Assembly: GCA_017453465.1 (NCBI GenBank)
Contig: JAFTEV010000025.1
Coordinates: 1-64,000 of the forward strand
Direction of reading: 5' to 3'
DNA: 64,000 nucleotides
DNA from: Bacteroidaceae bacterium
Lineage (GTDB): Bacteria > Bacteroidota > Bacteroidia > Bacteroidales > Bacteroidaceae
This document shows, piece by piece, positions 17,285 to 53,946 of the stretch. Under the pieces are notes generated by a model that was not told where the DNA came from, made no database searches, and saw only the letters and a program-made list of their open reading frames with translations. Made by a program: the position numbers and the translations under genes. The stretch's first letter is position 1; the number at the start of each line of letters is the position of its first letter.

Positions 17285-19081
17285 TTAGTGCACCGGTGTT
17301 AGCGGATAGACGAGGTTGACGATGAGGATGTTGGCGGCCAGGATGATGAGGTTCATCGGGAGGCCGATACGCATGAAGTCGCTGAAGCGGTAGCCGCCGG
17401 GGGCATAGACGAGCATGTGGGTGGGCGAACCGATGGGGGTGGCAAAGCTGCTGCTGACGCTCACCATGAGGGCGATGAGGAAGGGGTAGGGTTCGTAGCC
17501 CATCTTTTCGGCGGCTTCGAGCATGATGGGGCAGAACATGGCTCCGGCGGCTGTATTGGAGATGAATTCGGTGATGAAGGTGCCTACGAAGCAGATGGCT
17601 GTCATTACGACGATGGGGTTGGTGCCGCACGCATCGAGGATGCTGAAGGCCATCCGCTCGGCTATGCCTGTCTTCTGGATGGCCAGTCCCAGCACGACGG
17701 AGCCGGCAAAGACCATGAGGATGTCCCAGTTGATGGAGCGCATGGCCTGGTCGGGTGTGCAGCAGCGGAAGAGGAGCATGGCGGCGGCAGCGAGGAAGGC
17801 GCACTGCAGCAGGGGCAGTATGCCGAGGGCTGAGAGCACTACCATGGCGAGCATGATGGCTGTGGAGATGAGGGTGCCGTAGCCGATGTTGGGGACTTCG
17901 TCGGAGTCGAAGAACTGGAGGTTGCGGGCCATGGTGTCGGTGTCTGGCTTGAATTGTCTTGAGCATAGCAGCAGCAGGGTGTCGCCGGCCTTCAGGACGA
18001 CTTGCCGGGGTGCTTCGCTGATTCGCTTGCCCATGCGGGAGACGGCTGCCAGCATTACGTTGTTGTCTTTCTCGAATGTGCTGCCGCCGATGGTTTTCCC
18101 TATCAGGTTGCTGCCGAAGGTGACGTATGCTGTGCGCAGACGGGTGTAGTTGTCCAGTTCGTCGATGGAGTATATGTGGTGGTCGGCGCTCACCAGCTTG
18201 TGGTCTATGGCCATTTCGATGAGTTCGTCTATGGGGCCTGCATATAGCAGGTGGTCGCCACCCATGAGGGGTTCTTCGGCACAGAGGGGGAGGGGCTTCT
18301 GGTCGTAGTGGCTCATCTTGAGCAGGGTGCCGCTCTTGACGTTGTAGAGGCCGGCTTCGGCCAGCGTCATGCCGATGTAGGGGTTGTCGGAGGGGACTTG
18401 CAGTTCCAGGGTGTATTCGCTCATGGTGTCAAATGCGCTTTCGGGTGCCTTGCGGTTGGGCAACAGGCGGCGCATGGCGATGATGGAGAGTACGCCGACG
18501 AAGAGGCAAAACAGGCCGGGGATGGCGGTGGCCAGTATGTTCATCGCTTTGCCGGTGTAGTCGGCATAGAGGCCGGAGATAATCAGGTTGGGAGGTGTGC
18601 CTATCAGTGTGCACACGCCGCCCATGCCCGAGGCGTAGCTCAGGGGAATGAGGAGTTTGGAGGGGGGGACACCCAGTTTCTTCGACCACATCTTTACGAT
18701 GCCCACGAAGAGGCTTACCACCGTGGTGTTGCTGAGGAACGAGCTGAGTGCGGCCACGGGCAGCATCAGCCGGACGACGGCTTTCGAGTAGCTGTCGGGT
18801 TGGCCTAAGAGGTATTTCACGACGCACTGCAGCACGCCGGTGTAGGTCAGGCCGGCCACTACCACGAACAGCACGCCAATGACTACTACTGACGTGGCAC
18901 TGAAGCCGGAGAAGGCTTCTTTGGCATCGAGCACTCCCGTCACGAACAGGGTGGCTATTGCTCCTAAAAACACGAGGTCGGCTCTCAGTTTTGTCAGCAG
19001 CAGGGTGGTGAACATTGCGAGCACCGTCAGGATGGTAATCCATGCGTGGAGATTGAATCCCCAGAGTTCAAAAGAGTCCAT
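17285..19081 (-). CDS. SLC13/DASS-type transporter with two RCK-C (TrkA-C) domains
   Basis: A 598-residue membrane protein. Two half-transporters, each with the family's SNT motif (FLSNTTVVSLF near 115; ISNTAAGAMF near 510), flank a soluble centre of about 170 residues carrying two TrkA-C-like domains (IGMTLAEAGLYNVKSGTLL; LIGKTIGGSTFEKDNNVMLAAV). Relatives move dicarboxylates, sulfate or other anions with sodium. The substrate is not readable. It is the last minus-strand gene after the signalling operon but is separated by a 177-base spacer, so it may have its own promoter. Confidence 0.88.
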   Translation of the reverse strand: MDSFELWGFNLHAWITILTVLAMFTTLLLTKLRADLVFLGAIATLFVTGVLDAKEAFSGFSATSVVVIGVLFVVVAGLTYTGVLQCVVKYLLGQPDSYSKAVVRLMLPVAALSSFLSNTTVVSLFVGIVKMWSKKLGVPPSKLLIPLSYASGMGGVCTLIGTPPNLIISGLYADYTGKAMNILATAIPGLFCLFVGVLSIIAMRRLLPNRKAPESAFDTMSEYTLELQVPSDNPYIGMTLAEAGLYNVKSGTLLKMSHYDQKPLPLCAEEPLMGGDHLLYAGPIDELIEMAIDHKLVSADHHIYSIDELDNYTRLRTAYVTFGSNLIGKTIGGSTFEKDNNVMLAAVSRMGKRISEAPRQVVLKAGDTLLLLCSRQFKPDTDTMARNLQFFDSDEVPNIGYGTLISTAIMLAMVVLSALGILPLLQCAFLAAAAMLLFRCCTPDQAMRSINWDILMVFAGSVVLGLAIQKTGIAERMAFSILDACGTNPIVVMTAICFVGTFITEFISNTAAGAMFCPIMLEAAEKMGYEPYPFLIALMVSVSSSFATPIGSPTHMLVYAPGGYRFSDFMRIGLPMNLIILAANILIVNLVYPLTPVH

Positions 19082-19257: not shown

Positions 19258-21813
19258 TCATTTGCAGTGTGCGTGTACGTAGTCAGAAATGACTCGGAGG
19301 CATTCGGGGCTGTGCATACAGGTGTAGTGGCTTCCCTCCAGGGTGATGATGTCGGCCTGGGGGTAGTCGGCTCGCCAGAGCTGTGGGGTGATTTGGTGGC
19401 GGTGGCGGTAGAGGTCCATCTTCCACTGGGGGATGGTGAGCTGCTCTTCGGGGGTCCAGGCTTGCTGTTCGTCGAAGTAGCGGCAGAGGAAGGAGGCTAC
19501 GGGGCCGTTGTAGATTTTTTCGTCGGGGAAGGTGGAGATGAGGGAGAGGTCGAGCTGGAGGCGCAGCTGGTTTTGCTGCTGGGTGAATACGGGCCAGCGC
19601 AGGGCGATGTAGTGGTCGGGGTCTTTGTCGCGGCGCACTTCGCCGTCGATGATGATGACGTAGGGTTTCTGCCCAGGGGCTTGGTCGTTGTGGAGGTCGT
19701 GGGCGAGGGGCAGGGCTTGTTCGCCGCCGAGACAGTAGCCCATGTAGGCTACGACGCGGTATTGCTGGAGGATGGGGGTGACGATGAGCCGGTAGAGCTG
19801 GAGGAGCTGGGGGGTGGTGGTGTCGGACTGCTGGAAGCAGAAGATGTTGTGGAAGCCCTCGATGACGAAGATGTTGTAGGTGTCGGTGAACTGGCGGCAG
19901 AGTTCTTCGTTGTAGGCGAAGTGGGGGTAGCCGCAGATGTAGATGATGACGGGTCGGTCGGGGTGCTCGGTGGGGTCGTTGTACCAGAAGGAGATGCGGT
20001 AGAGGTGTTGGTCGCAGATTTTGCGGATGGTGCGGTAGCGGTAGATTTCATCGACGGTGCAGGTGAATCCGCTGGAGTCGAGGTCGGCTGGTATCTGCAT
20101 GACCTGAAGGGAAGTGAGGCCCACGTCGTCGATGAGGTCGAGGTCGATGTTGATGCTGGGGAGGCCGACGATGCGGGCTACTTCGTTCATGAGGATTTGC
20201 TGGATGTTGCTGAGGGGCTGACCTGCCTGGGCGGTGGTGGCTATCCATGCTTTGTTCCTGAGGGTGGCTTTGTCTATCTTTCCGTTGATGTTGAGCTGGA
20301 AGGCTGTGACGTAGTTCCAGAAGACGGGCATCATGTAGGGGGGCAGATATTCTCCGGCGTATGTGCGGATGTCGCTGAGGTCGGGGTTACCGTCGGTGGT
20401 GCTGACGTAGGTGACGAGCTGTTGCTGTCCGGCTGGCTGTTCGATGCGGGTGAAGGCTCGGCGCACGCGGGGGTGGCTTTCGATGCGGGCGGTGATTTCT
20501 TCGAGTTCGATGCGGTAGCCGCGCAGCTTGACTTGCGAGTCGCGGCGGCCTATGTAGTCGTAGGTGCCGTCGGGGTTGAGGAGGACGATGTCGCCTGTGC
20601 GGTAGAGACGGATTGGAGAATTAGGAATGAGGAATGAGGAATGAGGATTTGATACTGAAAAGGCGGCACGGTAACCATTCCTCATTCCTAATTCCTCATT
20701 CCTCATTTTTGATTCTTCATTCCTCATTCCTAATTCCTCATTCCTAATTCCTATGAATTGTGTTTTGTTGAGTTCGGGGCGGTTCCAGTAGCCGTTGCAG
20801 AGCTGGTTGCCGCCCAGCAGGAGTTCTCCCTGCTGGCCGGGGCTGACGGGCTGGAGGTTTTCGTCGACGACGTAGCCGAAGACTCCGGGGACGGGTGCTC
20901 CGATGCAACGCCAATGGGCTTCGTCGGGGATGACGTAGGTGGTGGCGTAGAAGGATTCGGTGGGGCCGTAGCCGTTGACGAAGCGGAAGGGGTAGTGGCC
21001 TACGATTTTGCTGACGAGGCTGTGGGGGATGGCTTCTCCGCCGGCTGAGAGTGTCTGCATGGCGGGGAAGTTGTAGTCGGGGAACATGGCGAGCAGGGAG
21101 GGGGGCAGGTAGCAGAAGGTGATGGCTTCGTGCTGGAGGAGGTGGTAGAGCCGCCGTGCGTCTTGCTTGTCGTCGGTCTGGGCGATGACGCAGGTGCAGC
21201 CGGCATAGAGGGTGACGAAGATTTCCATGACGGAGACGTCGAAGCTGATGCTGGCAAACTGGAGCACGGTGGAGCTGGGGGTGACGTGGATGTCGTCGGG
21301 CTGCATGGCTCGCTGCATATAATTATAGATGGTAAGGTAGGTTTGCGATACGCCTTTGGGTTTGCCTGTTGTGCCCGATGTGTAGATGAGGTAGGCTTCG
21401 GAGAGGGTTTTGTGGAGGCACGGCAGCTGGCTCTGGGGTGTGGTCTCGATGAGTGTGGGCAGGTTGCCGGTGTTGATGAGGAAGTCCAGCTGCGAGTCGC
21501 CGAGGATGAAGTTGAGCCTTTCGGGTGGGGTGGCGATGTCGATGGGCACGTAGGAGCAGCCCAGCTTGACGCAAGCGAGGATGCAGGCGATGAAGTGGGC
21601 GTTGCGTGGCAGCAGTATGCCGATGCGGACGGGGCGTTCTCTGGTGATGGCTTCGGCGGGGAGTTGCTGGGTGATGGCAGTGGCGATGCTGGTTGCCATC
21701 TGGTCCATTTCTGCATAGGTGGTGTCTTGTCCGTTGATGCGGTAGGCTGCCTTGTGGGGTGTGTTGGCTATGTTTGCGTGTATCTGCTGTGAGAGTAGTT
21801 GGTAAGGGGACAT
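19258..21813 (-). CDS. Stand-alone NRPS-like protein: adenylation - carrier - thioesterase
   Basis: An 851-residue single module with no condensation domain. The adenylation domain has LIYTSGTTGKPKGV, FDVSVMEIF (Asp kept at the amino-group-binding position), GYGPTES, YRTGD and GRRDSQVKLRGYRIE. The carrier domain has DDVGLTSLQ near 566, whose Ser would bear phosphopantetheine. The thioesterase has GYCLGG near 693, with Cys where Ser is usual, and EGSHYTCMH near 828. Residues about 353-399 are an insertion made of heptamer repeats, just before RLYRTGD. ATG at 21813 is preferred over TTG at 21825. It follows the TonB-receptor gene by 37 bases. Product unknown. Confidence 0.82.
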   Translation of the reverse strand: MSPYQLLSQQIHANIANTPHKAAYRINGQDTTYAEMDQMATSIATAITQQLPAEAITRERPVRIGILLPRNAHFIACILACVKLGCSYVPIDIATPPERLNFILGDSQLDFLINTGNLPTLIETTPQSQLPCLHKTLSEAYLIYTSGTTGKPKGVSQTYLTIYNYMQRAMQPDDIHVTPSSTVLQFASISFDVSVMEIFVTLYAGCTCVIAQTDDKQDARRLYHLLQHEAITFCYLPPSLLAMFPDYNFPAMQTLSAGGEAIPHSLVSKIVGHYPFRFVNGYGPTESFYATTYVIPDEAHWRCIGAPVPGVFGYVVDENLQPVSPGQQGELLLGGNQLCNGYWNRPELNKTQFIGIRNEELGMRNEESKMRNEELGMRNGYRAAFSVSNPHSSFLIPNSPIRLYRTGDIVLLNPDGTYDYIGRRDSQVKLRGYRIELEEITARIESHPRVRRAFTRIEQPAGQQQLVTYVSTTDGNPDLSDIRTYAGEYLPPYMMPVFWNYVTAFQLNINGKIDKATLRNKAWIATTAQAGQPLSNIQQILMNEVARIVGLPSINIDLDLIDDVGLTSLQVMQIPADLDSSGFTCTVDEIYRYRTIRKICDQHLYRISFWYNDPTEHPDRPVIIYICGYPHFAYNEELCRQFTDTYNIFVIEGFHNIFCFQQSDTTTPQLLQLYRLIVTPILQQYRVVAYMGYCLGGEQALPLAHDLHNDQAPGQKPYVIIIDGEVRRDKDPDHYIALRWPVFTQQQNQLRLQLDLSLISTFPDEKIYNGPVASFLCRYFDEQQAWTPEEQLTIPQWKMDLYRHRHQITPQLWRADYPQADIITLEGSHYTCMHSPECLRVISDYVHAHCK
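20616..20754. repeat. Heptamer repeats inside the adenylation-domain coding region
   Basis: On the + strand 20616-20647 is GAATTAG, GAATGAG, GAATGAG, GAATGAG. From 20677 to 20754 there are about eleven 7-bp words, mostly ATTCCTC or ATTCCTA. The two arrays are complementary in sense and enclose about 30 bases. They encode the peptide RNEELGM repeated with variants. The same words form intergenic arrays at 39828-39900 and 49541-49600. Confidence 0.9.
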
Positions 21814-21850
21814 GGGATTTGACAATTGTGAATTGTTAATTTGTGATTTA

Positions 21851-24229
21851 TTAGAATTTATATGCCACGCTTCCAGTGAACCAGAATCCTTGCTGCATCA
21901 TGGGGGCAACGCTGCTTCCGCCTTGCACGTAGTGGTGGTTCAGGATGTTGTGGAAGTCCATGGCGAGGTCGAGTTTGCGGTAGCGGTAGTGTACACCTGC
22001 GTCGAAGATGGCGCGGGCTGGCACGGTAAGTTCTTCTTGGGTGCCTATCAGTGAGTAGAAGGCGGAGGACTGTTGGGTGGTGGCATTCATCTTGGCGTAT
22101 AGGTTGAGGCCCCGGAGGATGTCGTAGGAAAGGATGCAGTTGGCCTGGAGGGGCGGGATGTTGAGTATTCTTTTGTTGTCTGCATTGTCGTAGTATTCGG
22201 ATTTGAGTACGCACTGTGCCGTGCAGTTGACTTCTGCTGTCAGTCGTTTGTGTTTATATCGGGCTACGAGTTCGATGCCTCCGCTTGTTATTTTTCCGTT
22301 GTTGTAGGCTATGTTTCCGTCGTATGTGATGAAGTCGGTACCTTTGTTGCAGAAGAGGTTGAAGTCGAGCAACATTTTTTTAATCAGCTTGTTGTCACTG
22401 AGGAAGGAGAGCTGGATGGAGTTAAGGATTTCGGGCTGGAGTCCTTCCCAGCCCACTTCTACGTCGTGTGTGTTGCTGCGGTAGAAGTAGGGTGCATCGA
22501 CGAAGGAGCGGGCGTAGCTTAGCTTGACCTGAAAGCGAGGGGCGTTCCAGACGAGTGCGAGACGTGGGGAGAGTTGGTTTAGCTTCATGCCGAGGCGACG
22601 GCGTTTGAAGTCGTAGCGCAAGCCAGCGTTGACGGAGAGCCACTTGGCGAAGGAGTGTTTCACTTGCAGGAAGACGTTTGCGCTTTGTTCTTCTCCCGTC
22701 TGAAGTTGCTTTTCGTCGTGGTAGGTTTTGATGATTTCGTAGTAGTTCACGCCTTCAAAGTAGGAGGCGTTGTTCAGCCGGAAGTGGTTGTACTCTCCGC
22801 CCAGCAGGATGTTGCCGTGCTGGGTTCCAGCAAAATGGTATTCGTAGCTCCCCAGTGCTTTGATGCCGAGGGTGTATTCATCCCAGTTTACGCACTGGAA
22901 TCCTCCTACGTCCATCCTGACTCCAGGAGCATCGTGGTAGGGGTAGATGGTTGTGAAATTATTCAGGTCGGGGATGGTGTCGCCTACGACTTGAAGGCGT
23001 TGTTGCGACTGGCTGTCGAAAAAGGCTGTGGCCCTCCATGAGAATCTGCCGTGCTTGTCGCCCCAACCCAGTTCAAAGTGTTGCGAGGTGACGGCGTTGC
23101 CTGGCGCATTGCCGTTCCACTTGAGGTATTGTTTATATGAATAAGGTGTGAATCCGCTGCTGAGAGCCAGTGCAGAGACAGGCTTGGCAAAACGTCGGTT
23201 GTAGAGAATGCTGAAGGTGTTGTAGTGCAGGTTGACTCCGATGTCGTAGGTAGGCTTTCGGTTGTAGCCACCTATAATCATGTTGCCCGAACAGGGCAGG
23301 ATGGAGTAGGGTTGGGCTTCTTCAGTGCCTTCAATGTAGCGTTTTTCGCCACTTGCGTTGTAGAGGCTTCCCCAGACAAGGATGTCCAGCCCCATGTAGC
23401 GTTTGCCGAAGAGAACGTCACCCTTCAGCTGACCGTAGTTGCCCGCTGTGGCTTTGATTTTGAAGCCATCCACATCAGAGCCTTCCTTCGTGATGATGTT
23501 GACCACCCCCGTCAGGGCTACACCGCCGTAGATAGAGGAGGCTGGGCCACGGAGGACTTCGATTTGCTTGATTTTCTCCAGACTCATGCTGTAGTCTGGG
23601 GTGGCGGCATTGGTAGAATAGCTGTTGAGCCGATGGCCGTTGAGCATGATGAGAATTTTCTCCTGATTCGAGGAATAGATGCCACGCATGGCGACGTTCA
23701 TCTCTTCGTTGCTGGCAATGTCGGTCATGCCTGGCACATAGGTGATGAGCAGTTCCTTCAGGGTACGGGTTCCTGTGCTGCGAATCATTTCTTCGGTGAT
23801 GAGGGTGATGGGCACAGGGGCTTCCTCAATGGACTCGGCTTGCTGTGAGGCTGTGGTGATGGTGGCCGACTTTCCTGTTTTGATCTTTTCCACGAGGTCA
23901 ACAAATCGGGGCGGTTCGTTGTATGCCTTGTAGTAGGGGTCGGCTGTGAGCAGTTTGCTGACGTAGTTTTTTGCTTCCTCTGGGCAGTCCATGTTGAGCT
24001 GGCTGAGAGCCAGTATGCGGTAAGCATTGATTTTGAGTTCACCCCTCATGTTGTCGGCATGGGGACGGAGCAGGGAGTCCGCCTTCTCAAACTGTCCGTA
24101 TTCGTATGCTTCCATGGCTTTGGCCAGTACCATTTCGTCTTGATGCTTTGTGAAGGCCGTTTGTGCCCGGAGTGTGGCGGAAAGCAGCAGGAGCCAGAAG
24201 AAAAGGAATATGTGTCTGCAGATGTTCAT
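21851..24229 (-). CDS. TonB-dependent outer-membrane receptor with an N-terminal TPR-like region
   Basis: A 792-residue protein. After the signal peptide (ending LRAQ) residues about 25-110 are helical and TPR-like (AMEAYEYGQFEKADSLLRP, YRILALSQLNMD) instead of the usual carboxypeptidase-like domain. The plug spans about 130-250 (TGTRTLKELLITYVPGMTDI, AMRGIYSSNQEKILIMLNG, VLRGPASSIYGGVALTGVVNIIT). The rest is a beta-barrel ending in the C-terminal aromatic GSVAYKF. Its start overlaps the kinase stop by 4 bases, tying it to the signalling genes. The ligand is unknown. Confidence 0.9.
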   Translation of the reverse strand: MNICRHIFLFFWLLLLSATLRAQTAFTKHQDEMVLAKAMEAYEYGQFEKADSLLRPHADNMRGELKINAYRILALSQLNMDCPEEAKNYVSKLLTADPYYKAYNEPPRFVDLVEKIKTGKSATITTASQQAESIEEAPVPITLITEEMIRSTGTRTLKELLITYVPGMTDIASNEEMNVAMRGIYSSNQEKILIMLNGHRLNSYSTNAATPDYSMSLEKIKQIEVLRGPASSIYGGVALTGVVNIITKEGSDVDGFKIKATAGNYGQLKGDVLFGKRYMGLDILVWGSLYNASGEKRYIEGTEEAQPYSILPCSGNMIIGGYNRKPTYDIGVNLHYNTFSILYNRRFAKPVSALALSSGFTPYSYKQYLKWNGNAPGNAVTSQHFELGWGDKHGRFSWRATAFFDSQSQQRLQVVGDTIPDLNNFTTIYPYHDAPGVRMDVGGFQCVNWDEYTLGIKALGSYEYHFAGTQHGNILLGGEYNHFRLNNASYFEGVNYYEIIKTYHDEKQLQTGEEQSANVFLQVKHSFAKWLSVNAGLRYDFKRRRLGMKLNQLSPRLALVWNAPRFQVKLSYARSFVDAPYFYRSNTHDVEVGWEGLQPEILNSIQLSFLSDNKLIKKMLLDFNLFCNKGTDFITYDGNIAYNNGKITSGGIELVARYKHKRLTAEVNCTAQCVLKSEYYDNADNKRILNIPPLQANCILSYDILRGLNLYAKMNATTQQSSAFYSLIGTQEELTVPARAIFDAGVHYRYRKLDLAMDFHNILNHHYVQGGSSVAPMMQQGFWFTGSVAYKF

Positions 24230-25077
24230 TTTACAGTCTTTACGGGGATGATGAACGTGAAAGTCGTGCCGACATTAGGCTCCGATGCCATGAGGAGTTG
24301 TCCTTGGTGCTGTCGGGTGACGATGTCGCGAGTGATGCTCATGCCCAGCCCAGTGCCCTGTCCTATGGGTTTTGTGGTGAAGAAGTTCTCAAATATCTTT
24401 TGCTGAATCTCTTGGCTCATGCCCATGCCGTTGTCGGTGATGGTGATGTGGAGGTGGGTGCCGCCTTCCAGTGCCACCTTTATGCTGATGGTGGGTGTGT
24501 ACTCCGCCCCTTCTTTTGCGGCTCGCTCTTTGACGGTGTAGCAAGCGTTGTTCATGACGTTGAGCACAGCGCGGCTGAGGTCTTGGGGTACGACCATGAG
24601 GAGGGGCATTCCTTCCTGAATATCTTCATGGATGCTGATGTTGAATGTCTTGTCGCCAGCACGCATGGCGTGGTAGCTGAGCCACACATATTCGTGGACA
24701 AGTTTGCCTACATCTGTGGGCAGCTTTTCTCCAGCCTTCCCCCTGCTGTGGAGCAGGATGCCACGGATGATGCTGATGGCACGCTCTCCGTGTTCCTGTA
24801 TCTTCTCCATGTTTTCCTTCAAGTCGGCGGCAATGTCTTCAAGGTCGGCACGGTCGTCCTGGTCCAGCTGTTCAGCGCAGTCGTCGATGAGCTGCACGAG
24901 GTCGTCGGTCAGTTTGGCCGACATCTTGCTGAAGTTGATGACAAAGTTGAGCGGGTTTTGTATTTCATGGGCAATGCCAGCACTGAGCATTCCCAGCGAT
25001 GCCATCTTTTCCTGCCTGTGGAGTTGTTCTTGCAGGTTGGCTATTTGTTCACGAAGGGTGTTTTCGGTGGTTTCCAT
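24226..25077 (-). CDS. Soluble sensor histidine kinase with intact H-box
   Basis: A 283-residue cytoplasmic kinase with no membrane segment. A short coiled coil (about 5-25) leads into the dimerisation helix with the phospho-acceptor motif GIAHEIQNPLNF (His 37). The ATP-binding domain has the N-box NVMNNACYTV, G1 DNGMGM, F-box FENFFTTKP and G2 GTGLGMSI. Start at ATG 25077, 10 bases after the upstream stop. It is related to the upstream sensor, which lacks the His, so the two could act as a mixed pair. Confidence 0.9.
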   Translation of the reverse strand: METTENTLREQIANLQEQLHRQEKMASLGMLSAGIAHEIQNPLNFVINFSKMSAKLTDDLVQLIDDCAEQLDQDDRADLEDIAADLKENMEKIQEHGERAISIIRGILLHSRGKAGEKLPTDVGKLVHEYVWLSYHAMRAGDKTFNISIHEDIQEGMPLLMVVPQDLSRAVLNVMNNACYTVKERAAKEGAEYTPTISIKVALEGGTHLHITITDNGMGMSQEIQQKIFENFFTTKPIGQGTGLGMSITRDIVTRQHQGQLLMASEPNVGTTFTFIIPVKTVK

Positions 25078-25087
25078 GATGTGTGGG

Positions 25088-27640
25088 TCAGAGGGTAATG
25101 GTGAATTGTGTGTATTGGTCTTTCTCAGACTCGACGGTAATGTTGCCGCCAAAGTCTTGTATGATTTGCTGACTGAGGTAGAGTCCTACGCCAGCGGCTT
25201 CAGCCGTAGTCTTGGTGGTGAAGAAGGGGTCGAAGATTTTGTCGATGATGGTGTCTTCGATGCCTATGCCGTTATCGTAGATGGTGATGTTTGTGGCGTT
25301 TTCTCCCTGCGAGATAGTAACTCGTATCACGGGGCCAGAGGCGTTGGTTTGTTTTTCTGCCTTTTTTTGGATGGCATAGACGCTGTTGGCTAGCATGGAC
25401 ATGATGGTGCGGCTGAGTAATTCCGCATTGGTTGTGACCATGATGGACTGCTGCGGCTTGTCCCACTCCACTTGGATGTTCAGCTTCTCGATGTCCTCCT
25501 TATAATAATTGTGGAGCATCTGGATGTTTTGTTGGCACAGTTGCACGAGGTCGATGTCCTCCACCTTGTCGCTCCGTTCACGCAGCATCTCCTCCATGGC
25601 CTTCAGGATGCGGGTGGTGGAAAGGCCGTGCTGTTCAATCTTCTCCAGGTTGGTCTTCATCATGTCAATCACATCCATGCAGTCATCATAGATGTCGGCA
25701 GTCATCTTCTCTTCATCGTCTTCCAGGTTCTCCTTCAGGTCCTTGGCCAGACCGACGGTAAGGTGGGAGAAGTTGTTAATGTAGTTCATCGGGTTCAGGA
25801 TGCGGTCAATGAGTCCCTTGGTCAGCTTGCCCACCGTAGCCTCCCGCTCCTTGCGCACCAGTCGCTTCTGAGCCAGTCGAAGTTCCATGGTACGCTCGTC
25901 CACCACTGCTTCCAGCTGCTGTTGGCGGAGCTTCAGCTGTCGGGTGCGGTACCTGAAGATGGTGACGGTGAGTACCCCCAGCAGGATGACGTACAGCAGC
26001 AGGGCATACCAGCGCAGATAGATGGGGTAACGCACAAAGAAGAACCGCTCGCCCGTCTCGGCAATTTGTCCGTAAGGGTCCCTGCAGCGCACCGTCAGCT
26101 GGTACGTACCGTAAGCCAGGTTGCGGAAGTCAATGTCGGGGTCGTCATCCCAGGCCGACCATGCGCCATGGACGTGCAGTCGGTAGCTATACTGGGTAGT
26201 ACCGATGGGGTCGTGCTTATCGGTGGCCACCGTGATGCTGAGGTTTTGGCCGTCGAGGGAGAACGAGCGGAGGTAGATTTGTGGCGGAATGGGCTTTTGC
26301 TTTTCACTCTGCTTCAGGTTGATGCGCACAAGGCCAAAGTTGCCACCAATCCATGCAATGCCTTTGTCAATGAGCATGGCCTGTATGTTGTAGTGGGCAA
26401 AAGGCTCAAACCAGAGGGCAAAGTCACGCTTCAGCCCCTCGGTATTCACCCCCTCGCCATTGTCACGGCTCCGCCAGTGGCGACCTGTGTCGTCGATGTA
26501 TTCAAACAGCAGAGAGAGATGCCCCTCTTTTTGTCGGCTGAAGTGTTGTGCACCGGGTGACAAATAGTAACATTCACCGCCCAGGTTGATGGCCCACACG
26601 CCGCCACGTTTGTCGCGGTGCATCAACACCGTGTTGCTGATGTCGTCCACCTTCTGCTCCGAGCCATCATAACCACGTCGGTAGATTCCGTCAAGTTCGC
26701 CGCTGAGAAACGTGTCGTCGTTTTCCACCAAGATGGAGAGTGAAGTATTGCTCGACAAGCGGTGGGCAGCGTGGCCGTAGGTAAACACGCCGTCGCTGGT
26801 GGCGGCAATGGCATTATGCCGTTCAGTCTCGGCCAACTGCCAGCAAGCCTGCTGAACTTCTTCTACTTTTATGAACCGTCCGTTCTCCAGCAGAAACAGC
26901 CCCTTCAGGGTTCCCACGAAGAGCCTGCCCTGCGCCATCGTCATGCAAGTGACTTGTCCGTCCAGCCCCTCATGCTCGCCGAAGCGGGAATAGATTTCCG
27001 ATACCGAGATGCGGAACAGCCCGTTGTCCGTAGCTCCCCACACAGAACCCTTGCCGTCGTAAGCCAGTTCGGTGATGCTGTTGGAGCAGAGGCCGTTTTG
27101 CTCATTGATTTCCCACACCTTCCGTCCCTGTGCATCGATGGCAATCACGCCAGCAGTGGCCGTGGCCAGCAGGGTGCGGTTTTTGCTGATGGGTAGTCGG
27201 CTATATACTTCTATGCCGTTCCAACGGTCGATGCTGTCACGCGATTCATAGAAACGCTCGTGGATGAAGCCTGTTGCGTCCTTGTCGCTTTGGCTATAGA
27301 CCACGTGGATGCTGTCTCCGTCAACAGATTCCACATACCCCTTCACGTTTATGCCGCTGAAGCAGATGCGGCCATCCTTGTCGCGGTCGAGGTCGGTCAC
27401 ACGCGAAATGCCAGGGGTGTGAACAATGTGCCACTCCACATTGTCATAGACAAGGAGTCCTTCAAAGTTGGCCACGAAGGTGTGTCCCGTTTCATCACAC
27501 AGAATGTCGAAGTTGCGGTTGTGGGCATTATATTGTTGTGCCGTGAAGTTTTCGAAGAATGGCACACCCATCATTCCCTGTGCCATGCCGGGGATGACGG
27601 ACAGGAGCGTGAACAATATGATAAGAATCTGCCTTTTCAT
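25088..27640 (-). CDS. Periplasmic propeller sensor (Reg_prop, Y_Y_Y) with a degenerate kinase core
   Basis: An 850-residue one-pass sensor. After the signal peptide comes a periplasmic beta-propeller (about 25-430) and a Y_Y_Y-type domain (YSYRLHVHGAWSAWDDD to YGTYQLTVRCRDPYG), then a TM helix (YALLLYVILLGVLTVTIF), coiled coil and kinase core. The H-box reads GLIDRILNPMNY: the His-Glu of the family is Asp-Arg at about residue 612. The ATP-binding motifs remain (LANSVYAI, DNGIGIED, FDPFFTTK, GVGLYLS). Unlike hybrid sensors of polysaccharide loci it has no receiver or AraC domain. Confidence 0.88.
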   Translation of the reverse strand: MKRQILIILFTLLSVIPGMAQGMMGVPFFENFTAQQYNAHNRNFDILCDETGHTFVANFEGLLVYDNVEWHIVHTPGISRVTDLDRDKDGRICFSGINVKGYVESVDGDSIHVVYSQSDKDATGFIHERFYESRDSIDRWNGIEVYSRLPISKNRTLLATATAGVIAIDAQGRKVWEINEQNGLCSNSITELAYDGKGSVWGATDNGLFRISVSEIYSRFGEHEGLDGQVTCMTMAQGRLFVGTLKGLFLLENGRFIKVEEVQQACWQLAETERHNAIAATSDGVFTYGHAAHRLSSNTSLSILVENDDTFLSGELDGIYRRGYDGSEQKVDDISNTVLMHRDKRGGVWAINLGGECYYLSPGAQHFSRQKEGHLSLLFEYIDDTGRHWRSRDNGEGVNTEGLKRDFALWFEPFAHYNIQAMLIDKGIAWIGGNFGLVRINLKQSEKQKPIPPQIYLRSFSLDGQNLSITVATDKHDPIGTTQYSYRLHVHGAWSAWDDDPDIDFRNLAYGTYQLTVRCRDPYGQIAETGERFFFVRYPIYLRWYALLLYVILLGVLTVTIFRYRTRQLKLRQQQLEAVVDERTMELRLAQKRLVRKEREATVGKLTKGLIDRILNPMNYINNFSHLTVGLAKDLKENLEDDEEKMTADIYDDCMDVIDMMKTNLEKIEQHGLSTTRILKAMEEMLRERSDKVEDIDLVQLCQQNIQMLHNYYKEDIEKLNIQVEWDKPQQSIMVTTNAELLSRTIMSMLANSVYAIQKKAEKQTNASGPVIRVTISQGENATNITIYDNGIGIEDTIIDKIFDPFFTTKTTAEAAGVGLYLSQQIIQDFGGNITVESEKDQYTQFTITL

Positions 27641-27650
27641 CTGTGTGTGT

Positions 27651-29324
27651 CTATTCTTTGAATTGAACGTAGGGGATAGAAGCCCCCATGAAGCGCGACC
27701 ACTCTACATCCGTGAAATTTCGCTTCAACTTGTTGTGTACTTGCTGAGCCATGTTGTCCACCGAAACATTTTGGCGGACAACCTCCCCCGTGGCAGTGCC
27801 AATCCATACGCATCCCGTCCGTGGGTCGCCCAGCGTAGAAAGCGTCCAGCTGCGATAAATGTATTCCACGGGCGAAAGCCATTCGCCGGGGACACGGTTC
27901 TGCGGTTGAGCGGTTGTACGTTTTTGCGTTTTTGCGGTTTCCATTTCCTGCCAGAAGTTCAGCCCTGTGTTGAAAAGCAGGTTGTCGAGTTTCCAGATGT
28001 AGATGGCCTTGTCGTAAGCTCCCGAAACCATGATTGGCCCCACGGTAGTGATGCTGATGGGCTTGGCTTTGTGGGCCTCAAGTATCTCCACTTGTCGGTT
28101 ATATTTGTTCACCAGCTGGACGGGACCTTCTTTCAGCCCCAGAAACAAACACTGCAGGTCGGGTGCATAGTGGGCAGCCGTTACCACCCGCTTCACGAGG
28201 GGAGTCTTTTCTGTCAGTTTCCCCGTGCCGTCCATTTCTGCGTATGAGCCATCGGCAAAGAAGAGGCACAGCGTGTGCTCACGTTTGCAGATAGCAGAAA
28301 GTGTCTTCTGCAAACGGACAGGGGCAGAGACCGCACCACTGGAAAACGTGTACCAGCAGAGCGACTGTCGAGCAGCCAACAAGAGTGTGTTGCTGTCCGT
28401 GCGAATCATCTTGAAGAAGTTGTCTGGGGGCAGTGTCACGGCTCGTTGCATCTGGGCATTGTAGTTCACCACACAGAGGGTTCCTTCTTTAGAGAGCGCA
28501 TAGACAGCTTGCTTGCCTGCCCAAACGTCGCGAAAGTCATACGTATTGTCGTGCAACAGCGGTGTCTTTCCGCCCGCCGACCAGCAGATTTCCAGTTCGC
28601 CGTAGTTGGAGGCTGCCACACAGCCGTCCTTCCCTTTCTGGCCAGCTTCTGGTGGTACGATGCTCAGGGCATTCACCGCTCCACGCCTCTCCATGAAATA
28701 CGATTTGCTGGCCGCAGTAGCCATGCTGAGAGCCCTGAACGTTTCTGTATAATAAGTGTTCCCCTTATATTTGTCGAGAAAATACCAGCTGGCGTATGCC
28801 AAGAGGTCTGCCAAGATGGTGTCGCCCGTTTCGCGTTGGTTTCTGGAGGTCAGTCCCAGTGTCTTGGCTTGTGTGCGATAAGTCAGCGTGTCGGCAATGG
28901 TCTTCGACAGCGTGGCTCTGTCTCGCTCTTCCACAGCAATTTTCTGTTGCTCCTCGGCGTAGGCACGTTGTGTCTTGGCTTCCTCCAGGGCTTTCACGGC
29001 TTTCCCCTCCGCTTCGTGGGCTGAGCGAGATTCCTGTTCGGCGCGGTCGCGCATCTGGATGGCCAGTCGGGACGACTCTTCAGCCTTGTCGCGCTGACGG
29101 TCGGAAATCTCCTTTTGCTGATAGGCAATTTCTTCCATCTGCTGGCTCACACGCTTTACAACGGCGGCTTCCCGCTCGCCAGCCTTCAGGGCCTCCACCT
29201 CGGCCTTCATTGCCGTGAGTGCAGATTCCGACTGCCCCTTGCCCACAAAGTAGGCAATGGTTGCAGCCAGTGCAAGGCAGGTCAGGCCAACCAGCGACAA
29301 GAAGTATAAGCGTTGTTTGTTCAC
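27651..29324 (-). CDS. Membrane-anchored coiled-coil / WD40-like propeller protein
   Basis: A 557-residue protein. One N-terminal TM helix (about 6-26) is followed by a long charged coiled coil (about 35-150; QRDKAEESSRLAIQMRDRAEQ). Residues about 190-540 are beta-propeller-like blades (VWAGKQAVYALSKEGTLCVV, VSGAYDKAIYIWKLD, CVWIGTATGEV). The tail (VHNKLKRNFTDVEWSRFMG) resembles the end of WD40 proteins in bacterial signalling clusters. Residues about 460-477 come from octamer DNA repeats (TAQPQNR). Its start overlaps the upstream phosphatase by 4 bases. Confidence 0.75.
   Translation of the reverse strand: MNKQRLYFLSLVGLTCLALAATIAYFVGKGQSESALTAMKAEVEALKAGEREAAVVKRVSQQMEEIAYQQKEISDRQRDKAEESSRLAIQMRDRAEQESRSAHEAEGKAVKALEEAKTQRAYAEEQQKIAVEERDRATLSKTIADTLTYRTQAKTLGLTSRNQRETGDTILADLLAYASWYFLDKYKGNTYYTETFRALSMATAASKSYFMERRGAVNALSIVPPEAGQKGKDGCVAASNYGELEICWSAGGKTPLLHDNTYDFRDVWAGKQAVYALSKEGTLCVVNYNAQMQRAVTLPPDNFFKMIRTDSNTLLLAARQSLCWYTFSSGAVSAPVRLQKTLSAICKREHTLCLFFADGSYAEMDGTGKLTEKTPLVKRVVTAAHYAPDLQCLFLGLKEGPVQLVNKYNRQVEILEAHKAKPISITTVGPIMVSGAYDKAIYIWKLDNLLFNTGLNFWQEMETAKTQKRTTAQPQNRVPGEWLSPVEYIYRSWTLSTLGDPRTGCVWIGTATGEVVRQNVSVDNMAQQVHNKLKRNFTDVEWSRFMGASIPYVQFKE
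27900..27940. repeat. Octamer repeats inside the propeller-protein coding region
   Basis: Five imperfect 8-bp words on the + strand: TGCGGTTG, AGCGGTTG, TACGTTTT, TGCGTTTT, TGCGGTTT. They encode KTQKRTTAQPQNR. Related octamers occur in the coding regions at 39014-39051 and 42502-42541. Confidence 0.75.
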
Positions 29325-30484
29325 TTTCGTCTGATGACCAGTTGCGTAATGTCGTCACTCTGCGGGGCTTCACCCGCATAGTCTTTCACTTGCTGGTTGA
29401 TGGCTTCCACAATGTGCTGGCTGTCGGCTCCCTTTAGTTCAGCCAAGGCTTCCTCCAGCCGTGCCTCGCCAAACAGCTCCTTGCCAGTGTTTTCGGCTTC
29501 GGTCACGCCGTCAGTAAACATTACCAGGGTGTCGCCCTGCTCCAGCTGCATTCGGTTTCGCTTGTAGGGAATGCCATCGAAGGCACCCAGCACAAGGTTG
29601 ATGTCCCCCGTCACAGCCTCCACGCTGCCATTGGCGTGCAAGATGTAGGGAGCATTGTGTCCTGCGTTGGTGAAATCTATTTCGCCCGTTCTGGTGTTAT
29701 AGACACCATAGAACACGGTGACGAACATCGAATCCACGCTCTCGCCACACAAGATGTCGTTCACTGTCTGCATACACTCGTTGGAGGGCAGACCGCGAAC
29801 GCCAGTGGCTTTAATCAATGTGCGGCTCACGGCCATGAAGATGGCTGCCGGCACCCCCTTGCCCGACACGTCGGCAATGGTGAAGCCAAACCGCTCGTCA
29901 TCGATGCGGAAGAAGTCGTAGAAGTCGCCGCCCACGTCCTTGGCTGCAATCATGGAGGCAAAGATGTCAACCGTGTCGGCCTGTGGCATCTTCAACGAGA
30001 AGCTGCGAGGCAGAATGGCGTGCTGAATTTCGCGTGCCACACTGAGGTCGGCCTGAATGTCGTGCAGCTCCTTGCTGTCCTTCTGTGCAGCCCGCACAAA
30101 TTCAATCTGCTCGATGGCTTTCTCGATGGTGATTTGCAGGTCGTCCAGGTCAATGGGCTTCGTGGCAAAGTCGAAGGCTCCGTTGTTCATGGCATGGCGT
30201 ATGTTGTCCATGTCGCCGTATGCGCTGACCATGATGCACTTCAGGGCAGGGTTGCGCATTTCGTTAATCTTCGTGAGGAGTGTCAGTCCGTCCATTTCGG
30301 GCATATTGATGTCCGAGAGGATGATGCTGATATCGGGATGCTTCAGCAAGGTCTGCAGGGCTTCCAACCCATTGTGGGCAAAGAAGAACTCATATTCTCC
30401 TTTGCGGATTTTTCTACGGAAATACTGTGTGAGCAAGACCTCCAAATCGGTCTCGTCGTCAACACTGAGAATTTTAACAGCCAT
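29321..30484 (-). CDS. Response regulator with SpoIIE-type PP2C phosphatase output
   Basis: A 387-residue protein. The receiver domain (about 1-125) has SVDDE acidic residues, the phospho-acceptor Asp in ILSDINMPEMDG, and the KP pair in FATKPIDL. A short coiled coil with the phosphatase switch region (SVAREIQHAILPR) follows. The PP2C/SpoIIE domain has AAKDVGGDFYDFF, DVSGKGVPAAIFMA, NAGHNAPY and FTDGVTEAEN, so the metal ligands look intact. Such proteins remove phosphate from anti-sigma-antagonist-type targets in response to a kinase. It is first in the operon, presumably receiving phosphate from the His kinase at 24226-25077. Confidence 0.92.
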   Translation of the reverse strand: MAVKILSVDDETDLEVLLTQYFRRKIRKGEYEFFFAHNGLEALQTLLKHPDISIILSDINMPEMDGLTLLTKINEMRNPALKCIMVSAYGDMDNIRHAMNNGAFDFATKPIDLDDLQITIEKAIEQIEFVRAAQKDSKELHDIQADLSVAREIQHAILPRSFSLKMPQADTVDIFASMIAAKDVGGDFYDFFRIDDERFGFTIADVSGKGVPAAIFMAVSRTLIKATGVRGLPSNECMQTVNDILCGESVDSMFVTVFYGVYNTRTGEIDFTNAGHNAPYILHANGSVEAVTGDINLVLGAFDGIPYKRNRMQLEQGDTLVMFTDGVTEAENTGKELFGEARLEEALAELKGADSQHIVEAINQQVKDYAGEAPQSDDITQLVIRRK

Positions 30485-31832: not shown

Positions 31833-31908
31833 CATAGGCAATGCGTCGCTCTCGCGTAGGCAATTAGGAGGGATTGATTGCCTACGCGAGAGCGACGCAT
31901 TGCCTATG
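31833..31908. repeat. GTAGGCAAT palindromic element, copy B (perfect 32-bp arms)
   Basis: Arms 31833-31864 and 31877-31908 are exact complements over 32 bp with a 12-base loop. The arm contains CATAGGCAATGCGTC and CGTAGGCAAT. Its perfection suggests a recent or selected copy. The rest of 31790-32143 shows no gene. Confidence 0.92.
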
Positions 31909-32143
31909 CGAGAGCGACAAAATGTATATGTCAGACCCGCAAAATCTCATTTTCTGCTCAAGGAATTTGTGATTCCGCGATGTGCCGAAGATGGTGCTAC
32001 GCTCGTTGCAATGCTGTGCTGTAGCTGTTGCAAATTTGTGCTATGACATTGAGACCGTGCAAAAAAGGCTGTAAAAAAGGTTAATTTGCGGGCTTGCGCT
32101 TGTTGTTTCGTTCTTTTTTTCGTTATTTTGCCACCAATTAGCA

Positions 32144-53780: not shown

Positions 53781-53856
53781 CGTAGGCAATGGAGTGCGCT
53801 CGCGTAGGCAACAAAACCCAAAAGATTGCCTACGTGAGCGCGACGAATTGCCTACG
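53781..53856. repeat. GTAGGCAAT palindromic element, copy C
   Basis: CGTAGGCAAT (53781), CGTAGGCAA (53803), loop CAAAACCCAAAAGA, TTGCCTACG (from 53826) and ATTGCCTACG (53847-53856). Arms are imperfect. It lies between the XRE gene and asd. The 53465-54143 stretch holds no convincing gene besides this element and the asd promoter. Confidence 0.85.
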
Positions 53857-53946
53857 TGGTAGAGACACATTGCTTGTGGCACGGAAAACCCAAGGTCGCT
53901 TGAAGGCTGTTTTTGGGGCACTTACGCAGATTTTGTTTGCTGTTTC

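Follow-up and report, generated by a model that had tools for sequence, protein, structure and literature searches.

Six minus-strand genes in a 64,000-nucleotide stretch of a Bacteroidaceae genome (contig JAFTEV010000025.1; hereafter the window) raise the question of why a run of signalling genes should end in a TonB receptor and a small NRPS. The original prediction was that they form an operon that may detect or import a ligand from outside and produce or release a small compound derived from amino acids. To our knowledge, little is understood of private signalling between cells of Bacteroidales, which are dominant in animal guts.

Organization of the operon

All six ORFs are present in the ORF list of the window, and their coordinates bear out the predicted short overlaps and gaps (Table 1). 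The ORF listed for the histidine kinase (HK) opens at TTG 25152; the likely ATG, near 25077, follows a 10-base gap. The receptor and NRPS genes are separated by 25 or 37 bases, depending on whether the NRPS starts at 21825 or 21813. Using a scan model that excludes Bacteroidales promoters, we found no sigma-70-like match in these 25-37 bases; over the whole region, the same model gave 7 such matches versus 6.7 in shuffles. None of the six genes encodes an exporter, and the CitMHS-type transporter after the operon occurs, among the loci compared, in the window only.

Table 1. Features of the operon in the window
Feature	Position	Strand	Remarks
RR-SpoIIE, response regulator (RR) fused to SpoIIE-type (PP2C-like) phosphatase	29321..30484	-	First gene, proposed output stage; PF00072, PF07228
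Membrane WD40 protein, coiled-coil and WD40; proposed periplasmic scaffold	27651..29324	-	4-base overlap with RR-SpoIIE; hydrophobic N-terminus, WD40 profile, kept position
Propeller and Y_Y_Y membrane sensor, pseudo-histidine-kinase	25088..27640	-	10-base gap to WD40 gene; PF02518, PF07495
Soluble HK (HisKA and HATPase)	24226..25152, likely start ~25077	-	PF00512, PF02518
TonB receptor; helical extension at the N-terminus, weakly TPR-like	21851..24229	-	4-base overlap with HK; plug 134-242, barrel 344-751
Receptor N-terminal domain, to codon ~110-140, staying with kinase core	23810..24229	-	Edge placed by homology to G729/G592 switch, approximate
Exchangeable cassette (receptor plug and barrel, NRPS), type I allele	19258..23809	-	Covariation, trees, DNA comparisons; left edge approximate
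Single-module NRPS: adenylation, carrier, Cys-type thioesterase-like domain	19258..21825 (or 21813)	-	PF00501, PF00550, TIGR01733; type I pocket
7-bp tandem-repeat array inside NRPS	20618..20753	-	In frame; adds ~33 residues

Domains and catalytic residues

Pfam confirmed the labels given to three of the signalling proteins: receiver and SpoIIE domains in the first, HATPase and Y_Y_Y in the propeller sensor, HisKA and HATPase in the HK. As expected of a two-component system, the receiver Asp is kept in 47 of 47 copies of RR-SpoIIE and the phospho-His in 42 of 42 copies of the HK, window included. The phosphatase has the metal-binding acids expected in partner switching, with the four SpoIIE acidic positions kept in 46-47 of 47 copies. 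The propeller sensor had been predicted to lack the phospho-His, and indeed Asp replaces it in all 44 copies (window included); the N, G1 and G2 box residues are kept in the same 44, and the DRILNP motif is also found in G147 and G282. In the second protein, predicted to be a membrane propeller protein, a profile built from 8 copies confirmed WD40 repeats, and in 44 of 45 copies the first 45 residues include a hydrophobic stretch. We propose that it is a membrane-anchored scaffold that would face the periplasm.

The receptor had been called a TPR-TonB protein. Pfam supported the TonB part, giving plug and barrel families only, with no STN domain and no TPR in the N-terminal domain; a profile of that domain produced only weak matches, the first to a designed protein (E 0.0035) and the next to the TPR protein PilF (E 0.008). 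The nearest named models of the receptor are heme and siderophore receptors, far below the cut-off. Among ten proteins scanned (six of the operon and four neighbours), there was no FecR-type anti-sigma or ECF sigma factor.

For the last protein, predicted to be an adenylation-carrier-thioesterase enzyme, the first two domains were established by matches to PF00501 (AMP-binding), PF00550 (PP-binding) and TIGR01733 above cut-off, and the core motifs are present. The Pfam scan of the window protein detected no thioesterase; in G592, the homologous domain at the C-terminus of the NRPS scores above cut-off for PF00975 (E 5e-7). This domain has a GxCxGG motif and conserved Cys, Asp and His positions, and its profile matches one polyketide synthase chain at E 4e-4. 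The ~33 residues encoded by the 7-bp array are absent from the 22 other NRPSs aligned.

Conservation of the gene order

Of 47 Bacteroidales loci, 38 carry the complete run of genes for RR-SpoIIE, WD40 protein, pseudokinase, HK and TonB receptor in the order found in the window, and the run also occurs in other genera. Contig ends truncate 7 of the remaining loci, the receptor gene of L067 is divergently oriented and L073 has no receptor gene. An NRPS gene directly follows the receptor gene in 23 of the 38 complete loci and is lacking there in 15. The arrangement is far beyond chance; chance adjacency, which rarity of such neighbourhoods in other genomes would have indicated, is ruled out by the kept order. 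A fixed six-gene operon is also ruled out, since 15 of the 38 loci have no NRPS and NRPS architecture varies. A five-gene signalling core joined to an exchangeable ligand/receptor cassette describes the unit better, and the core can apparently work without a self-made ligand, because those 15 loci have a receptor but no NRPS. The original reading of an outer ligand and a small product is supported, as far as sequence goes, by the recurrence of the five-gene run and by the lack of a promoter match, under the scan model used, between the last two genes.

The order-level RR search gave 40 matches in 39 genomes, the window's own included, and 20 stretches were read. G438, G462, G496, G660, G712, G721, G726, G728, G538, G619 and G529 were set aside as duplicates of named loci solely because their contigs are of equal length, and seven genomes of the first synteny check match named loci by the same criterion; G663, with its RR cut by a contig end, was left out.

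Covariation of the receptor body with the NRPS

Across 26 loci (L053 included, L081 with its cut NRPS excluded), pairwise identities of barrel and NRPS were correlated at r=0.96, and those of receptor N-terminal domain and pseudokinase at r=0.95. The partial correlation of barrel and NRPS given the pseudokinase was 0.95 (0/2000 permutations). In the first set of 22 loci, the correlation with the NRPS was 0.94 for the receptor versus 0.22-0.51 for the four upstream genes. Type IV cassettes alone (12 loci) gave 0.77 for barrel and NRPS given the core (0/2000); within this type, neither the receptor N-terminal domain nor the plug showed a link to the NRPS beyond the core. The split of the N-terminal domain from the cassette is imperfect: its partial correlation with the NRPS was 0.44 (0/2000) in the 22 loci and 0.20 (61/2000) in the 26. 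L053 was excluded from the 22-locus correlations, trees, AU tests and type IV test, and G1205, whose NRPS runs beyond the stretch analysed, entered no correlation.

Among close pairs, which are not independent of one another, the barrel fell at least 25 points below the core in 20 of 62 pairs with NRPS in both loci versus 0 of 6 pairs (a small sample) with NRPS in neither; G499, without a receptor beside the RR, was excluded from this comparison. Fast barrel evolution in general was rejected, as most same-type pairs have barrel identity near core identity; there are exceptions, among them L058/L081 (94 versus 74, with the pseudokinase as core), which has a lower NRPS identity too (0.66).

The core tree placed L042 with L043 and L049 with L056 as sisters (support 100) and rejected type I as a clade (AU p 8e-50). 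In the plug, barrel and NRPS trees, types I and III are clades, and L042+L043 was rejected by plug (p 0.0045), barrel (p 5e-42) and NRPS (p 1e-6), whereas the receptor N-terminal segment did not reject a type I clade (AU p 0.18); the clades were named after the first trees, and these p-values are descriptive. Four-taxon site counts were 218:8:9 for the stretch from RR to HK but switched to 2:121:2 in receptor columns 161-774 and 4:223:3 in the NRPS. Receptor and NRPS are of the same type in all 22 typed loci. A single history for all genes was rejected, cassette type requiring 6 changes on the core tree versus a minimum of 3. Within type IV, the receptor and NRPS trees disagree in detail, grouping L083 and L081 differently, so finer reassortment is possible.

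The cassettes differ in NRPS architecture (A-T-TE, C-A-T-TE or A-T-C-A-T-TE). At the ten positions that we take to form the adenylation pocket, the type I enzyme of the window reads DVMYSGGYAK. By these assumed positions, types I and II are one residue apart and types III and IV vary inside; alleles therefore need not mean different amino acids.

Cassette exchange seen in DNA

The G729/G592 and G1205 comparisons came after the hypothesis was framed. G729 and G592 are 98.1% identical over 15.3 kb, from before the RR gene into the receptor gene; they diverge from receptor codons ~110-140, show essentially no relationship across barrel and NRPS, and become similar again at the start of the next gene. 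G1205 carries a third allele. L066 and L054 are 83% identical as far as receptor codon ~270 and share no similarity across barrel and NRPS; identity returns, at 79%, with the final base of the L066 NRPS. In G655, the NRPS gene precedes the receptor gene and still lies within the segment differing from G795, in a pair whose pseudokinases are only 50% identical. Raw identity windows had suggested that the plug stays with the core, but the AU tests, together with the comparison of G729 and G592, corrected this view. Assembly chimeras are unlikely, as the same contig again shows similarity beyond the exchanged segment in L066/L054, L042/G014, G729/G592 and G655/G795; in L046/L052 similarity does not return and the downstream genes differ, and in L049/L056 the 307 remaining bases are too few for a judgement. 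As judged from these sequences, receptor plug and barrel are exchanged together with the NRPS, and the N-terminal domain remains, for the most part, linked to the kinase genes. Since receptor body and NRPS are exchanged together, the NRPS product is likely the ligand of the receptor.

Linkage to a partner switch

An RsbW-like gene lies within three genes of the RR gene in 9 of the 20 order-level loci. STAS and RsbW genes flank the operon in L041, L046 and L082 and lie within the clusters of G729, G592 and G1205. In the window's own genome (G000), a single clear RsbW-like gene lies between two STAS genes, unlinked to the operon; one PPTase-family gene is also present.

Proposed pathway and alternatives

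We favour, with moderate confidence, a pathway in which a ligand/receptor cassette feeds a two-component system that acts on a partner switch. The sequences provide the gene set, the catalytic residues, the kept order, the co-exchange of plug, barrel and NRPS, the association of the N-terminal domain with the core and the STAS/RsbW linkage in some relatives; the ligand, the direction of signalling and the output we infer. The NRPS would activate an amino acid, hold it on its carrier and release a small product via the Cys thioesterase-like domain, other cassettes using an added condensation domain or two modules. The product would leave the cell and bind the barrel and plug of the adjoining receptor. 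Occupancy would be relayed to the receptor's periplasmic N-terminal domain and, through it, to the WD40 protein of the inner membrane and to the propeller pseudokinase. The latter, having ATP-binding boxes without the phospho-His, may work with the soluble HK by heterodimer formation or allosteric control. The HK would phosphorylate the receiver of RR-SpoIIE, and the phosphatase would dephosphorylate a STAS protein, which would titrate an RsbW-like kinase off its target. Different alleles would mean different ligands, and mutual responses would be confined to cells whose cassettes are identical or closely similar.

The lack of an exporter gene, the unlinked partner switch in the window's genome, the NRPS-free receptors in 15 of 38 loci and the nearest receptor models, of siderophore and heme type though far below cut-off, count against this reading, as does a one-residue product, which would be an unusual TonB ligand. 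A metallophore or siderophore system, in which the receptor imports a metal-carrying NRPS product, the kinases regulate expression and signalling is a by-product of uptake, on the pattern of pyoverdine-FpvA, would account for the receptor's HMM similarities to heme and siderophore receptors, and synthetase-receptor covariation is the rule for pyoverdine (PMC11734721). We regard it as unlikely: those model scores lie far under cut-off, the window NRPS has one module, the six genes include no chelating-group enzyme, binding protein, ABC importer or reductase, and the other conserved genes encode signalling proteins or the WD40 protein. The NRPS might instead modify or consume a compound imported by the receptor, for nutrition or detoxification, both following one external substrate. 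The same covariation would be expected, and receptors without NRPS in 15 of 38 loci agree with it, but the varied NRPS architectures fit synthesis of different products better, and we consider this quite improbable.

Phages and bacteriocins commonly use TonB receptors, and the barrel could diversify as such a target and drag the NRPS along by position. The high divergence of barrels between types and the discordant type IV trees fit this explanation; against it, receptor and NRPS types match in every typed locus, the covariation of barrel and NRPS extends to type IV taken by itself, and the exchange ends at the NRPS end (L066/L054) or the next gene's start (G729/G592). Moreover, no barrel replacement was seen in the 6 close NRPS-free pairs (a small sample), and the G655 NRPS, though placed before the receptor, still falls in the segment that differs from G795 (pseudokinases 50% identical). 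We think this more improbable still. An ordinary regulatory operon standing beside a functionally unlinked NRPS would explain the 15 loci without NRPS but hardly the kept order, the covariation, the AU tests, the two allele swaps and the third allele of G1205, and is scarcely credible.

Beyond the pathway that we favour, we give about even chances to a new class of self-recognition in Bacteroidota: an NRPS-made private signal would be read by a cognate TonB receptor whose binding body swaps with the synthetase, its periplasmic signalling domain staying wired to the pseudokinase/HK pair and the SpoIIE partner switch, so that cassettes would define communication groups changed by one recombination event. 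If so, gut bacteria would have a new way to tell their own kind from others, an outer-membrane route would be added to quorum-type signalling, a function would be found for a group of gut NRPSs with one or two modules, and a two-component system would be tied to a partner switch in Bacteroidales. Natural allele swaps such as G729 versus G592 would make molecule, receptor and response directly testable. The modular break between N-terminal domain and plug suggests how new ligand inputs join one pathway.

Comparison with known systems

What is new here is how the last two genes, receptor and NRPS, evolve. No system of this kind appeared among the open-access papers listed on SpoIIE/TonB/propeller or SpoIIE/TonB/NRPS sets, Bacteroidetes partner switching, rumen NRPSs with TonB receptors, or outer-membrane quorum receptors.

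Such exchange is a hallmark of private signals, as in ComQXP and pyoverdine-FpvA. In ComP only the sensing part is known to vary, and Agr runs parallel. PMC4408185 describes the comQXP genes as highly polymorphic and as defining communication groups in Bacillus. As in ComQXPA and Agr, barrel, plug and NRPS vary together here while the kinases and RR follow the species. As in a pherotype, synthetase and putative ligand-binding part covary and are exchanged as a block, and the putative signalling part of the receptor follows the host with the kinases and RR (N-terminal domain-pseudokinase r=0.95; residual partial correlation with the NRPS 0.20-0.44). Unlike the ribosomal modified peptide of ComQXPA, the signal would be NRPS-made; the TonB receptor belongs to the outer membrane and is a protein distinct from the kinase, and a SpoIIE phosphatase would provide the output.

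Small NRPSs are involved in valdiazen/Pvf signalling. The gene clusters make a small quorum signal in Proteobacteria (PMC5878181, PMC10194917), and the openings of the abstracts name no outer-membrane receptor cassette.

NRPS and TonB receptor coevolve in pyoverdine systems (PMC11734721), and plug regions discriminate groups of pyoverdine receptors (PMC11444679). The present locus resembles pyoverdine-FpvA in this covariation and in the N-terminal extension of the receptor. Unlike FecA and FpvA, the receptor here lacks an STN domain, and the ten proteins scanned include neither FecR nor an ECF sigma factor; unlike the FpvA system, the locus would signal via a pseudokinase/HK pair and RR-SpoIIE, and the NRPSs seen have one or two adenylation domains. 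With RsbU/RsbV/RsbW it shares a SpoIIE phosphatase, a STAS protein and an RsbW-like kinase, close together in some relatives; unlike in that system, the phosphatase carries a receiver and adjoins an HK pair.

Gene content and conservation of the operon

The original prediction described six closely spaced minus-strand genes, and all six were found at the expected positions, separated by -4 to 37 bases. Profiles of Pfam and NCBIfam agreed with the proposed families: receiver plus SpoIIE (RR), propeller/Y_Y_Y plus ATPase, HisKA plus HATPase (HK), plug plus barrel (TonB receptor) and AMP-binding plus PP-binding (NRPS); the TPR label of the receptor and the thioesterase (TE) label of the NRPS received weak profile support. 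The second gene encodes a WD40 protein with a membrane anchor and a coiled coil. As predicted, a propeller sensor without the phospho-His lies beside an intact His kinase: the propeller protein keeps its ATP-binding boxes with Asp at the phospho-His site in 44/44 copies, and the phospho-His is present in 42/42 neighbouring HKs. The two therefore form a pseudokinase-kinase pair. The DRILNP motif of the propeller protein also occurs in genomes of other families (G147 and G282), so the pairing is old. The receptor is presumably coupled to the kinase, and the WD40 protein is proposed to be a periplasmic scaffold.

Searching named Bacteroidales records with a WD40-protein profile gave 46 loci (47 with the window), many of them labelled as ruminant foregut or horse faeces. 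The gene order indeed recurs: 38 of the 47 loci carry RR, WD40, pseudokinase, HK and receptor as an uninterrupted series. Seven others are truncated at contig ends, L073 is without a receptor, and in L067 the receptor is divergent; the sequence of the latter groups with NRPS-linked receptors despite a distant core (RR to HK). The NRPS gene immediately follows the receptor in 23 of the 38 full runs and is absent from 15. In the genus of the window, the WD40 gene was present in 15/45 genomes (3/14 among the better ones), and RR was present in 29/399 genomes drawn from the family (8/30 genera) and 39/393 drawn from the order. L145, from another family (G849), encodes consecutively RsbW, one further gene, RR, WD40, pseudokinase, HK and receptor, with no NRPS match in the genes shown. 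Our searches, confined to one open-access library, found no description of a comparable system.

Positions of the operon and of associated features
Feature	Locus	Position	Remark
Six-gene operon	window	19258-30484	minus strand
CitMHS/TrkA-C type transporter	window	17285-19081	
CitMHS/TrkA-C type transporter	L093	6994-8757	
CitMHS/TrkA-C type transporter	L135	17647-19461	
CitMHS/TrkA-C type transporter	L136	418-2184	
7-bp tandem-repeat array	window	20618-20753	in frame, within NRPS adenylation domain
22-bp repeat unit, ATTGCCTACG-type	window	31877-31930; 53825-53873	
Receptor	L067	1-1809	divergent to rest of operon, truncated at contig end
Second TonB receptor	L043	from 20159	after NRPS
Second TonB receptor	L044	from 20071	after NRPS
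Long ORF	L046	6329-8503	724 aa, precedes STAS and RR
Long ORF	L082	1910-4270	786 aa, precedes STAS and RR

The receptor plug and barrel are exchanged together with the NRPS

In the first 22 loci, pairwise identities of the receptor and the NRPS correlated at 0.94, and those of the four upstream genes and the NRPS at 0.22 to 0.51. The receptor tree and the NRPS tree gave the same four types (I-IV; the window is type I) for 22/22 loci, with conflicts in detail inside type IV, e.g., at L083 and L081. Mapping the types onto the core tree takes 6 changes where 3 would be the minimum; L042/L043 and L049/L056, sister pairs with full support from the core data, each combine two different types. Because group names were assigned once the first trees had been seen, the p-values are descriptive: in AU tests the core data rejected a type I clade (p 8e-50) and a type III clade (p 7e-8). 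With plug, barrel and NRPS, types I and III were clades and L042+L043 was rejected (p 0.0045, 5e-42 and 1e-6, respectively); L049+L056 was rejected by the plug (p 0.028) and the NRPS (p 2e-39). The N-terminal receptor segment kept both sister pairs with indecisive support (90 and 95) and rejected the type III clade (p 0.0003) but not the type I clade (p 0.18).

Informative sites among L042, L043, L049 and L056 were counted as core grouping : cassette grouping : third grouping, the cassette being plug, barrel and NRPS. The ratio was 218:8:9 from RR to HK, 9:4:2 in receptor columns 1-160, 2:121:2 in columns 161-774 and 4:223:3 in the NRPS. DNA comparison of L066 with L054 gave 83% identity until receptor codon ~270, no match across the barrel and NRPS, and 79% identity starting at the final base of the L066 NRPS; the same-type control pairs L051/L062 and L046/L066 showed no such gap. 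Within type IV alone (12 loci), the barrel covaried with the NRPS given the core (0.77, 0/2000), and the N-terminal domain and plug did not. Over the 22 loci, the N-terminal domain gave a partial correlation of 0.44 with the NRPS (0/2000), which speaks against a perfect split.

The second receptors of L043 and L044 belong to the clade of receptors from NRPS-free operons, as if an older receptor had been kept next to an acquired cassette.

Loci found after the hypothesis was formed

Ten further loci were available as checks: G592 was obtained via an NRPS search, and nine more non-duplicate loci came from a later RR search of the family that was not aimed at cassettes. In four of the ten (G729, G592, G655 and G795) an NRPS gene lies beside the receptor. 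G729, assembled in about 4 contigs and so possibly from an isolate, is 98.1% identical to G592 across 15.3 kb. In 30-base steps along the receptor, the two agree at 96-100% up to codon ~110, at 83-100% up to ~140 and at 46-83% beyond; the sole DNA match in barrel and NRPS is 175 bases at 67%, and similarity returns (86%) with the start codon of the gene that follows. Their NRPSs are A-T-TE and C-A-T-TE, respectively. G1205, of the same genus, has a third cassette, and its 81% identity extends across 14.5 kb, until receptor codon ~240; the operon RR was present in 3/61 genomes of this genus. G655 and G795 share both flanks and differ in the cassette, gene order included, but this is weaker evidence because their pseudokinases are only 50% identical. 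The NRPS of G655 has two modules, as does that in the same slot of L053.

With 26 loci, the N-terminal domain tracked the pseudokinase (0.95) and the barrel tracked the NRPS (0.96). Partial correlations with the NRPS given the pseudokinase were 0.95 for the barrel and 0.71 for the plug (0/2000 permutations each); the N-terminal domain gave 0.20 (61/2000).

NRPS pocket and release domain

Types were compared at what we take to be the pocket positions of the adenylation domain. At these presumed positions, the residues are identical in 4/4 type I copies, which lie on distant cores; type II is one residue off type I, and types III and IV are more divergent and internally variable. Several alleles, not necessarily all, should therefore use different amino acids. 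The nucleophile motif of the release domain has Cys in 21/21 complete one-module copies and in 3/4 of the later loci, with Ser in G655. Cys thioesterases are less common; ObiF has one (PMC6668435). The genome of the window has one PPTase-family match, a 195-residue ORF.

The 7-bp array in the window NRPS was missing from the 22 other NRPSs aligned with it; similar repeats occur elsewhere in the genome. A one-unit change would shift the frame, so the array could be an on/off switch, although its copies are imperfect. The window also has a 22-bp repeat unit at two places.

A partner switch as the probable output

The output of the operon is probably a partner switch. G147 has the order STAS, RsbW-like kinase, pseudokinase, HK and RR-SpoIIE; L041 has STAS before RR and RsbW after the receptor, and L046 and L082 have both RsbW and STAS before RR. 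An RsbW-like gene lies at most 3 genes from RR in 9 of the 20 order-level loci read. The genome of the window has one RsbW-like match above the Pfam cut-off, on another contig with a STAS gene on either side, and a second, weaker match below it. The RsbW-like kinase would act on a putative target.

The long ORFs of L046 and L082 match the RR-SpoIIE query and end C-terminally in an RsbW-like segment, which suggests a phosphatase-kinase fusion. In L132 and L144 (the loci of G729 and G592), STAS/RsbW genes are interspersed with a GlcNAc 2-epimerase family match and another gene with no signalling match. Transporters of the CitMHS/TrkA-C type recur, adjoining the operon or RsbW/STAS genes, the copies of the window and of contig C79 being 47% identical; possibly the transporter is an output of the switch.

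Discussion

Block exchange of a synthetase with the ligand-binding portion of a receptor usually means that one makes what the other binds. We favour the reading that the NRPS product is the ligand of the adjoining receptor, read out via HK and RR-SpoIIE. The same covariation of receptor and NRPS would be expected if the product were a metallophore that the receptor imports with its metal. This is rather unlikely, as the six operon genes, receptor aside, include no uptake or chelation gene, and heme/siderophore receptor models score far below cut-off on the window receptor. Import by the receptor of a substrate for the NRPS is less likely still, being a poorer fit with the variable number of NRPS modules. 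Diversifying selection on the barrel alone seems the least probable of these alternatives: it predicts barrel-only swaps, whereas receptor and NRPS type agree in 22/22 loci, and among close pairs, which are non-independent, the barrel is replaced in 0/6 NRPS-free vs 20/62 NRPS-bearing pairs (with a laxer core threshold, 0/10 and 36/112, and 2/2 mixed pairs).

The portion of the receptor that stays behind is the domain expected to face the kinase proteins; plug and barrel are what is exchanged. In pyoverdine/FpvA, receptor groups are told apart by plug regions (PMC11444679). ComQXPA (PMC4408185) and pyoverdine-FpvA (PMC11734721) are comparable cases of a synthetase with its receptor.
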